From assembly GCF_003568865.1 (NCBI RefSeq), contig NZ_CP031115.1, forward strand, positions 2,046,001 through 2,110,000: 64,000 bases of DNA, read 5' to 3'. A model generated the notes under the pieces. That model saw only the letters and a program-made list of their open reading frames with translations, searched no databases and was not told where the DNA came from. Positions 25,529-30,554 of the stretch are shown in pieces. A program made the position numbers and the translations under genes. The first letter of the stretch is position 1, and each line of letters opens with the position of its first letter. Source of the stretch: Rubrobacter indicoceani (GTDB lineage: Bacteria > Actinomycetota > Rubrobacteria > Rubrobacterales > Rubrobacteraceae).

Positions 25529-26008
25529 CTACATCTTCGGGTTGAGGATGTGGAGCGTAAGGATATCCATGCGCGTCAGGACGCCCCGGAAGGCGTCTCC
25601 GTCGGTTACGGGGAGGATCTTCATGCGCCGGTCGGCCATAAGCGTCGCGGCCTCCGAGAGCGTCGCATCGGGCGAGACGGTAACCACCTCGCGGGTCATC
25701 ACCTGCTCTGCGGTGACGGCCGCGCTCTTGAACGTCTCCTCGCGGTACTCGTTCCAGTTTCCGAGGGGGATCATCCCCCCGAGGATCTCAAGGAAACCCG
25801 GTGATTCTATCTCCGCGTCCCGGAAGATCAGGTCCCCCTCCGTCACTATGCCGACGAGGCTCTCGCCCTCGACGACGGGTGCGCCGGAGATGTTGTCGCT
25901 CGCAAAGAGCTTTATGACGTCCTCGACCGTCGCGTCGCGCGAGAGCCTCGGCCACTCGTCGTGCATTACGTCGGATACCTTCAGGTTTCTTATGTCGCCC
26001 GGCTCCAT
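25529..26008 (-). CDS. CBS-domain pair protein
   Basis: A 159-residue protein with two CBS motifs (about 8-60 and 95-155): VSDVMHDEWPRLSRDATVEDV with GAPVVEGESLVGIVTEGDL, and VMTREVVTVSPDATLSEAA with ILPVTDGDAFRGVLTRMDIL. CBS pairs bind adenine nucleotides and act as energy or ligand sensors. No catalytic domain is attached, so it probably regulates a partner protein. It lies between the hydrate-repair gene and alr on the same strand. The ATG at 26008 is preceded by a purine-rich GGGTGGGATG. Confidence 0.87.
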   Translation of the reverse strand: MEPGDIRNLKVSDVMHDEWPRLSRDATVEDVIKLFASDNISGAPVVEGESLVGIVTEGDLIFRDAEIESPGFLEILGGMIPLGNWNEYREETFKSAAVTAEQVMTREVVTVSPDATLSEAATLMADRRMKILPVTDGDAFRGVLTRMDILTLHILNPKM

Positions 26009-27645: not shown

Positions 27646-28122
27646 CTACCTCCCCAGCGGGGGCGCGAGGATCACTCTCTTCTCGCCCTTTCGGATGGTG
27701 CAGACGGCGACGGCGGAGAGTTCGGAGTGGGTGATCGAGATATACAGGTCGTCCTCGCCCACCCCGACGGCGGTGGCGAACCGCTCTATTTTCCCGAAGA
27801 TGCGAACGGTCGGGGCGTGGCGGGGTTCTCTCAGGACCTCGACGCCGTTCCACTGCAGAAGGCCGCAGCCGAGGGCCTTGCAGACCGCCTCCTTCGCGGC
27901 CCAGCGGGCGGCGTAGTGTCGCTCGTAGAAGCGGTACTTTTCGCAGTACGCTATCTCATCCGGCGTGAAGAGCCGCTGACGGATGCGCGGCGAGCGGTTC
28001 AGGGCGAGCTTCATCCGCCCGCAGTCCACCACGTCCACCCCGACCCCCGGGACCCGGAACTCCCGGCTTCCGGCGTTTGGGGCTTCGGGGCTTCGTTCTC
28101 TACCTGCGGTTTGGTCTGGCAA
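27646..28122 (-). CDS. acpS: Holo-[acyl-carrier-protein] synthase
   Basis: A 158-residue phosphopantetheinyl transferase that activates acyl carrier protein. Motifs are GVGVDVVDCGRM near residue 26, with the magnesium Asp, and WAAKEAVCKALGCG near 94, with the second metal Glu. The TTG at 28122 has GGAG 6 nt upstream, so the 25 residues before the usual family start are probably translated; they look disordered. It lies between the DAC-domain gene and the hydrate-repair gene. Confidence 0.93.
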   Translation of the reverse strand: MPDQTAGRERSPEAPNAGSREFRVPGVGVDVVDCGRMKLALNRSPRIRQRLFTPDEIAYCEKYRFYERHYAARWAAKEAVCKALGCGLLQWNGVEVLREPRHAPTVRIFGKIERFATAVGVGEDDLYISITHSELSAVAVCTIRKGEKRVILAPPLGR

Positions 28123-28146: not shown

Positions 28147-29478
28147 TCAGGCCTGGTTCCAGTAGGTTATCCCCTCGGGGCCCTTTGTTATAAAGCGGGC
28201 TGAGCCATCCTGGCTGACGACCACGGCTATTGCCCCGGGGACGGCGGCGGCGATGCGGTAGGCCGAGCGGTGGCGCGTGCCGACCCCGTCAACGGGTTCT
28301 TCGACCGTCTGCCTGCCCTCGTGGTCAAGGGCGCGCCGGACGGTCTGCGTCCGCTCCAGGGAGGCGGAGATCTCGGCCCCGAAGCCCAGAAGCTCGTAGC
28401 GTTTGCTCAGTACGACCGCCCCGTCAACGGCGGCCAGGGCGGCGATAAGGTTTGCAAGCTCAAAGACGGCCTCGTCGAGCCGGGCTATCTGCGGGTCGCT
28501 GGAGGTCTGGTATTCGTGCCAGCCGACGGCGCGGGGGTAGGAGTCGCGTCCGCCCTTGCCGTGGACCTCGACGAGGCGGTTCGTCACCCCGAGGATAAGG
28601 CTCCGGTAGCGGCGGCGCGGTTCCTCGTCTCTGAAGCGATGCTTGAAGGTGATATACGGGTTGTCGCGGGAGAACTCTCCGGTGCGTTCGGCGGGGATGA
28701 AGATCAGCGTCCCGCCGTGCCGGACGTCTCTAAGGACGCTGATCATACGCCTGACGACGTGCTGGCCGATCATGCGCGTCAGGTCCGGGTCGAGCGGCGC
28801 CCACGGTTCTTCGGTTTTCCGCCGGGTAAGTTCACGGGCGCTGGCATGAAGCTCGGCAAGCTCGGCCCTGACCGGGGCGAAGCTCTCGGTGAGCCACTTC
28901 GAGGCGAAAACGTCTATGGGCCTGCCGTGCAACTCGCCGCCTTCGAGCTTGGCGACGTAGCGCGAGCCGCGCCGGAACTCCACCCGCCCCGGCCCCGAGA
29001 CGTGCAGAACCGGAACGCCGGGCAGGGGCGGCGAGAGCTCGCGACCACCCTGCGTCCGAAGTACCCAGCGCGGGCCGGACTGCACGATCCCCCACACGCT
29101 CATGGAGCCGTCCCCGTCGTCTTTCACCCCGATCAGCGACCGGTGGTAGTCGGCGGCGGGCGAGAGGCGACGAAGCTCGTCCTCATCGAAAGGTCGCGGC
29201 TCGGTAAAGACGAGCCGGTGCAGCCCGGTCGGCGGGCCGGACTCCTGCGGCAGTTCTTCGGGGTTTATAAGGATCACCCGAAACGTAACCGTCCGCTCCT
29301 CCTCGTGCATCAGGCTCGCCTGGTAGCAGACGGAGATAAACCGCAGAAGCACGTCCTCTTGCGGCAGCGCGAGGTGACCGGACGAGCCGCGCGCTCCGGC
29401 CCGGACCCGGCTCGGGGCGACCTCGGACCAGCGTTCCATCACAAACGCGGCAAGATGCCTCGGGTAAGCGTGGGTCAT
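28147..29478 (-). CDS. DAC (DisA_N) domain protein, probable diadenylate cyclase with an N-terminal sensor region
   Basis: A 443-residue soluble protein. The C-terminal third is a DAC domain: DGAVVL at 352-357, LGFGAEI at 364-370, GTRHRSA at 400-406 and VVVSQDG at about 420. The DGA and RHR motifs required for c-di-AMP synthesis in DisA and CdaA are intact. There are no transmembrane helices and no helix-hairpin-helix DNA-binding tail, so it is neither CdaA nor DisA. The N-terminal 300 residues are not a domain I can name; stand-alone DAC proteins with an N-terminal sensor domain have been described from comparative genomics (for example those called DACNV) and this may be one. The ATG at 29478 has GGAG just upstream. 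A TACAAT -10 box lies about 65 bp upstream. Confidence 0.82.
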   Translation of the reverse strand: MTHAYPRHLAAFVMERWSEVAPSRVRAGARGSSGHLALPQEDVLLRFISVCYQASLMHEEERTVTFRVILINPEELPQESGPPTGLHRLVFTEPRPFDEDELRRLSPAADYHRSLIGVKDDGDGSMSVWGIVQSGPRWVLRTQGGRELSPPLPGVPVLHVSGPGRVEFRRGSRYVAKLEGGELHGRPIDVFASKWLTESFAPVRAELAELHASARELTRRKTEEPWAPLDPDLTRMIGQHVVRRMISVLRDVRHGGTLIFIPAERTGEFSRDNPYITFKHRFRDEEPRRRYRSLILGVTNRLVEVHGKGGRDSYPRAVGWHEYQTSSDPQIARLDEAVFELANLIAALAAVDGAVVLSKRYELLGFGAEISASLERTQTVRRALDHEGRQTVEEPVDGVGTRHRSAYRIAAAVPGAIAVVVSQDGSARFITKGPEGITYWNQA

Positions 29479-29612
29479 GCGCTCCTCTCGCTGCGGGTTT
29501 TGCCCGGCGGCTCCGTCCCTTGCGGCCCTTCGGGCCGTCCGGCGAGATTGTATCCTGCACCCGGTCCGGCGTCGTCCGGGGCGGACTTTCTCTGCAAGGC
29601 TCGCCAGCAGGC

Positions 29613-29632
29613 CGTAATCAGCGTATATTACG
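29613..29632 (+). promoter_or_regulatory. Leaderless promoter of the diacylglycerol kinase-like gene with overlapping palindrome
   Basis: TATATT (29624-29629) is followed by 7 nt and the ATG at 29637. CGTAAT (29613-29618) and ATTACG (29627-29632) form an inverted repeat around the -10 box and may be an operator. Confidence 0.45.
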
Positions 29633-29636
29633 CCGG

Positions 29637-30554
29637 ATGAAGATGAGCGATCAGAACGAGGCCACGCAGGAACAGAAGCAGCGGGCGATGGACGCCGAGG
29701 CCGTCGTTATCGGGAACCCGGCCTCGGGCAACAGCGACATGGAGCGGCTCGAAAGCTTTGCCCGGATACTCGAAGGCCGGTTCGACTCGGTAGAGGTCTG
29801 GCCGACGGAGTACCCCCAGCACGCCACCGAACTCGCCACGAAGGCCGGGGTCAAGGTGATCGTCGCCGCCGGCGGCGACGGGACGGTGAACGAGGTCATA
29901 AACGGCATGGTCGGCGGCGCGACCCTTGCGATCCTGCCGCTCGGCACGGCGAACGTGCTGGCGCGGGAACTCGGGATACCGCTCAAACCGGAGAAGGCCT
30001 GCAAGAAGCTGCTCTCGGCGCAGGAGATAGTCATCGATATCGGCATCGTGACCAACGAGTCGGGCGAGTCGCGGCGGTTTGCGTGCATGGCCGGCGTGGG
30101 CTTCGACGCGCACGTTATCAACTCGGTACCTTCGCGGCTGAAGAAGCTCCTCGGCATCGCCGCCTTCGCCCTGACGGCGTTCAAGGTCTTCGCGGTCGGT
30201 AGGATGCCGGAGATCTCGATGACCAGCGCCGGAGAGACGCACCGGGCTCAGTTCGCCATCCTTGCAAACGGCGGCCTCTACGGTGGAGACTTCAAGTCCT
30301 CCGAGGATGCCTCGCTAACGAGCGGCTTTCTCGACGTGGTCTACGTTCAGAAGGTAGCCCGGCTTCTGAGACCGGACATCCTGACCCGCATCCTCACCCA
30401 GAACCCCCTGAGCCGCGACACGCGCAACTTCCGGGCGACCGAGCTGTACGTCGAATCCGCAGGCGAGGTCCCGGTGCAGATAGACGGCGAGGTCTGGGGC
30501 GAGCTTCCGATGAAGTTCCACATCGAACCGAGGTTCCTGAGGGTGATCCGCTAG
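29637..30554 (+). CDS. Diacylglycerol kinase/sphingosine kinase family lipid kinase
   Basis: A 305-residue enzyme of the DagK/YegS group, which phosphorylates diacylglycerol or a related lipid with ATP. The ATP site GNPASGNSDMERL and the key VAAGGDGTVNEVI motif (GGDGT at 79-83) are present, as is LPLGTANVLARELGIP. The C-terminal domain has FACMAGVGFDAHV and ends with QIDGEVWGELP, typical of the family. The frame opens upstream at 29520, but the -10 box at 29624-29629 and the homology both place the start at ATG 29637. It diverges from the DAC-domain gene. The exact lipid is not determinable. Confidence 0.92.
   Translation: MKMSDQNEATQEQKQRAMDAEAVVIGNPASGNSDMERLESFARILEGRFDSVEVWPTEYPQHATELATKAGVKVIVAAGGDGTVNEVINGMVGGATLAILPLGTANVLARELGIPLKPEKACKKLLSAQEIVIDIGIVTNESGESRRFACMAGVGFDAHVINSVPSRLKKLLGIAAFALTAFKVFAVGRMPEISMTSAGETHRAQFAILANGGLYGGDFKSSEDASLTSGFLDVVYVQKVARLLRPDILTRILTQNPLSRDTRNFRATELYVESAGEVPVQIDGEVWGELPMKFHIEPRFLRVIR

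Follow-up and report, generated by a model that had tools for sequence, protein, structure and literature searches.

Which kind of protein carries the diadenylate cyclase (DAC) motifs found in a 64,000-nucleotide stretch of Rubrobacter indicoceani DNA (hereafter the window), and what does the half that precedes its cyclase domain do? A preliminary description had read the locus as a DAC-domain protein that is neither DisA nor CdaA. The list of open reading frames and its translations give a minus-strand frame of 443 codons at 28147-29478. Its ATG start matches the conserved M-HAYP N-terminus of its relatives in alignments, the orthologue in the sister species is 75% identical, and comparison with this orthologue yielded a pN/pS of 0.35, which indicates purifying selection on the minus-strand frame. 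Together, the common start, the orthologue, and this ratio identify 28147-29478 as a gene under selection, bearing out the open reading frame proposed. The features of the encoded protein, which is kept at full length in 66 aligned proteins, are as follows:

28147..29478, minus strand: DACNV-DAC protein of 443 aa, with PF21751 and PF02457
28927..29376, minus strand: DACNV domain (PF21751), residues ~35-184, predicted from the model of residues 1-192 to be a degenerate DAC fold without DGA or RHR
28150..28806, minus strand: predicted DAC domain, residues ~225-443
28417..28425, minus strand: DGA motif, residues 352-354
28267..28275, minus strand: RHR motif, residues 402-404

An open frame of 456 aa also runs antisense over the gene (28270-29640, plus strand) and is long in some relatives too. 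It is probably a shadow of the GC-rich sequence and not a gene.

In Pfam, PF21751 (DACNV) matched residues 37-132 (E 8.5e-31; 106.5 bits against a cut-off of 27), while PF02457 (DAC) gave a partial match to residues 393-426 (E 3.3e-5), which scored 28 bits with the neighbours in frame (cut-off 27) and 23.9 bits, under the cut-off, by hmmscan alone. No NCBIfam model exceeded its cut-off for this protein, and the NCBIfam DisA model reached 12.9 bits against a cut-off of 201. Relatives on Hymenobacter plasmids are named "putative sensor domain DACNV-containing protein" in RefSeq. The PF21751 match and this naming make the protein a member of a named, little-studied family, and by sequence it belongs to the already known DACNV-DAC architecture.

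Much of the preliminary description agrees with this assignment. The protein lacks the C-terminal domains of DisA as well as any membrane segment, and the genome encodes a separate DisA, so that it is indeed neither DisA nor CdaA. The reported lack of a transmembrane region is confirmed by hydropathy, as the highest 19-residue window (mean 1.86) falls in the DAC helix adjoining DGA, and by the structure model, which has no separate membrane region. Since nothing follows the DAC domain, there is also no DNA-binding tail. The characterization as a sensor-DAC protein known from comparative genomics and poorly characterised fits the DACNV-DAC architecture as well; no use of the term DACNV in the sense of a cyclase family was found in the literature searched. 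The claim that about 300 unassigned residues precede the DAC domain was wrong on two counts: PF21751 covers residues 37-132, and the DAC fold of the structure model begins at about 225-230 rather than 340.

The full-length AlphaFold model, made with the 66 aligned proteins as input, reached a pLDDT of 92.5 and a pTM of 0.87. Structure comparison of this model placed the DAC fold at about residues 192-443, with its core from ~225-230 and a long segment (~262-330) between the first DAC strand and the DGA helix. The closest structures were DisA of Thermotoga maritima (3c1y, Z 12.2), DisA of Mycobacterium tuberculosis (12.0), DacM (11.8), the Bacillus cereus protein 2fb5 (11.7), and CdaA (10-11). 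With the full model, DAC folds scored Z 8-12 over ~130-141 residues, and the first unrelated row scored 4.5. In addition, the profile of the C-terminal part matched a profile of 42 canonical DACs with an E of 2.9e-10. The model thus strongly supports a DAC fold for the C-terminal half, and as this fold starts from about residue 225, the cyclase domain is bigger than first held.

The nature of the N-terminal domain was addressed with residues 1-192 folded alone (pLDDT 86.5). Foldseek returned no significant match for this model, while VIA-align on 657 Foldseek candidates gave 44 chains at a Z of at least 2. Counted by entry, diadenylate cyclases made up 24 of the 25 rows, aligning 112-121 of ~150 residues at Z 4.8-7.4, where values under 8 are no proof and the best, 7.4, lies within the range of unrelated folds or chance. 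The sole non-DAC row was a phosphatase (Z 2.5). An FBPase-like N-terminal half was rejected: its weak rows (Z 4.0-4.5) appeared with the full model only, and the phosphatase found with the domain alone is the related one.

The modelled domain consists of a helix (41-55), two strands (66-70 and 87-96), a short helix (99-105), two strands (114-120 and 126-133), a helix (137-142), and three final strands (156-162, 165-170, and 173-179). The order of these elements fits that of a DAC domain in which the long helices ahead of DGA have been shortened. Neither DGA nor RHR is present within residues 1-192; YHR/HRS (111-114) occupies the place of DGA, and PRW (136-138) or GGR (144-146) that of RHR, in an uncertain register. 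The best conserved residues of the domain include W129, G130, G135, W138, and G171, which suggests a working surface, and by element order the first four of these would lie near the old nucleotide pocket. The model gives moderate support for a DAC-like fold of the N-terminal domain, which we consider likely, and the "sensor" half may be a second, degenerate copy of the DAC fold without the catalytic motifs.

Alternatively, an active cyclase could be fused to an unrelated alpha/beta sensor that resembles a DAC domain and controls it by ordinary ligand binding. Such a sensor would fit the Z values under 8 and the Foldseek result, as well as the separate Pfam model of the N-terminal domain, which covers 37-132 only. 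It would also fit the profile comparison, in which the N-terminal profile had no similarity to DAC profiles (P 0.07-0.47) and 9 of 60 reversed or shuffled control profiles scored equally high. However, all rows above Z 2.5 were DACs, aligned to 112-121 of the ~150 residues that lie between the first helix and the last strand of the domain, and we therefore regard an unrelated sensor as rather unlikely, though the most serious of the alternatives.

As described previously, DGA and RHR are both present in the translation of the C-terminal domain. Their conservation was assessed in two sets: A1, 19 proteins picked by the N-terminal domain alone, and A2, a wider set of 66 aligned relatives. D352, G353, A354, R402, H403, and R404 are invariant in A1, while in A2, DGA is present in all 66 proteins and RHR in 65, the exception being RHS. 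As RHR and GFG served as search patterns in the scan for A2, motif conservation in this set is biased; A1, owing to its selection by the N-terminal domain alone, is unbiased for DGA and RHR and is the fairer test. In M. tuberculosis DisA, changing RHR to AAA abolishes activity, and RHR is needed for ATP binding (PMC3328451). At the level of motifs and fold, the earlier view that c-di-AMP synthesis is plausible holds, and the protein probably makes c-di-AMP. Its pocket differs from that of canonical DACs, given that DGA and RHR lie 50 residues apart, compared with 32-33, and that SQDG replaces the SEE-type motif. The longer segment between DGA and RHR contains two extra strands in the model, and the adenine-recognition strand is altered, with a family-specific strand LGFGAEI.

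These departures could also mean that the DAC domain is no longer a cyclase, but a receptor of ATP or c-di-AMP or a pseudoenzyme, with DisA as the source of c-di-AMP. A search for disA elsewhere in the 3.08-Mb genome located it beside radA, so the DACNV-DAC gene need not supply all c-di-AMP. Nevertheless, both motifs are retained in several phyla, including in the copies found by the N-terminal domain alone, and 4 of 49 DACNV genomes (drafts) have no other DAC over the threshold, which makes loss of cyclase activity distinctly unlikely. Still less probable is a different product, e.g., a mixed or linear dinucleotide. The family-specific strand and the 18 additional residues between DGA and RHR would leave room for this, but adenine is read in CdaA through main-chain contacts of Leu188 (PMC11066881), which can survive a change of side chain, and nothing indicates another base.

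The DisA proteins of this family of bacteria vary as well. In DisA of the window species (L001, G000:C1:799952-800296, plus strand) and of its sister (L112), GMRHL replaces the usual G-x-RHR. The same replacement was found in DisA of the Rubrobacteraceae L179 and L181-L183, while L110, L111, L177, and L178 keep RHR. Among the few genomes compared, loss of the last arginine of RHR in DisA was not linked to the presence of DACNV. Many Rubrobacteraceae (L184-L188) encode a third DAC type, in short frames of ~200-290 aa with a GLGSRHM motif, which was not found in the genome of the window. Finally, in DAC-like proteins of Deltaproteobacteria (L192-L194; G423, G424, and G433), DGA is kept and ARFNS replaces RHR; these proteins are possibly inactive or different.

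Further components of a c-di-AMP pathway were sought in the genome of the window. TrkA_C domains (six matches over the cut-off) and DHH proteins are encoded, which are possible c-di-AMP receptors and hydrolases, respectively, while no ydaO riboswitch was found in the genome. The DACNV-DAC gene itself lies in an operon-like context, where it is followed by acpS, nnr, a gene for a CBS-domain protein, and alr. Two of these genes are relevant here:

27646..28122, minus strand: acpS-like phosphopantetheinyl transferase (PF01648), the next gene downstream after a gap of 24 bp
25529-26008, minus strand: protein with two CBS domains, encoded within this run of genes

Some CBS proteins elsewhere are c-di-AMP receptors. 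Among the loci compared, the order acpS-nnr-CBS-alr, and with it the linkage to the CBS gene, was seen in the sister species only. The neighbourhood was rejected as a guide to function, as beyond the gene and its apparent shadow frame, no cluster links more than 13 of the 80 loci described below.

Full-length relatives, at 39-58% identity, were found in at least 8 phyla. A scan of the whole collection with the single protein gave no relatives, whereas a profile-guided scan with an alignment and the RHR and GFG patterns recovered 80 loci, which belong to Rubrobacteraceae, Thermoleophilia, Melainabacteria/Obscuribacterales, Cyanobacteriota, Myxococcota, Thermodesulfobacteriota, Nitrospirota, Verrucomicrobiota, Planctomycetota, and Acidobacteriota. 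The closest named relatives are from Rubrobacter, and within the phylum, DACNV occurred in 16 of 396 sampled genomes, all Rubrobacteraceae. In the tree, the Actinomycetota do not form one clade; sequences of Acidobacteriota and Planctomycetota stand among them with good support. This is consistent with transfer, while mis-binned contigs or paralogues are also possible. One near-complete Rubrobacteraceae genome carries a DACNV-DAC copy broken over several frames (L026/L028, G227:C1:294051-295219), apparently a decaying paralogue. The patchy distribution, the Hymenobacter plasmid copies, and the intermixed phyla might recall an anti-phage nucleotide-signalling system, but neither the protein nor three neighbours matched a PADLOC model, no match was found in phages, the neighbours are housekeeping genes, and no partner gene is widely common to the 80 loci, so that this explanation is very improbable; a phage origin was likewise rejected.

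Compared with other DACNV-DAC proteins (PF21751 and PF02457), the protein has the same domain order, a full-length alignment, and the invariant motifs, with no essential difference; only its gene context is particular, since among the loci compared, the gene lies ahead of acpS in this genus only. It shares the DAC fold (Z 12), DGA, and RHR with DisA (T. maritima 3c1y; M. tuberculosis 9y4s). However, in DisA the DAC domain is N-terminal and is followed by a spine and HhH domains, whereas here it is C-terminal, with neither a helical spine nor HhH. CdaA/DacA likewise has a C-terminal DAC domain, but in combination with transmembrane helices, which this protein lacks, and with a DGA-RHR distance of 32 rather than 50. 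CdaS (B. cereus 2fb5) is also soluble and combines a C-terminal DAC domain with an N-terminal regulatory part. The N-terminus of CdaS is short and helical, while the protein described here has an alpha/beta domain of 190 residues in its place. In class III nucleotide cyclases that form C1/C2 pseudo-pairs, a single chain contains an active copy of the cyclase fold and a degenerate one. These enzymes provide an analogy only, as fold and chemistry are unrelated and pairing in the present protein is hypothetical.

Taken together, we favour, as on balance the likelier account, a soluble two-domain DACNV-DAC cyclase in which c-di-AMP synthesis by the C-terminal domain is gated by a degenerate DAC-like domain. 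DAC catalysis requires head-to-head DAC dimers (PMC8573169). The C-terminal domain (~225-443) would bind ATP through DGA and RHR, and c-di-AMP would be formed where the DAC domains of two chains are apposed head to head. The N-terminal domain (~35-184), a putative degenerate DAC fold in which DGA and RHR are lost, would serve as the regulator of the cyclase. Either it binds a small ligand on the side where the nucleotide pocket would once have been, or it pairs with the DAC domain and thereby governs productive head-to-head contact. More tentatively, and with somewhat less than even confidence, we propose that DACNV proteins are tandem cyclases, in which an inactive DAC copy, fused to an active one, binds nucleotide or c-di-AMP and gates the head-to-head pairing. 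We know of no earlier description of the DACNV sensor in these terms, and no description of pseudo-cyclase control among c-di-AMP enzymes was found in the literature searched; if true, the tandem arrangement would represent a new control principle of this kind. The DACNV-DAC family spans at least 8 phyla, yet no mention of it by name was found in the same literature. A degenerate-cyclase sensor, if true, would suggest in concrete, testable terms how DACNV enzymes are controlled, and would extend c-di-AMP synthesis to groups in which only DisA and CdaA have been considered.
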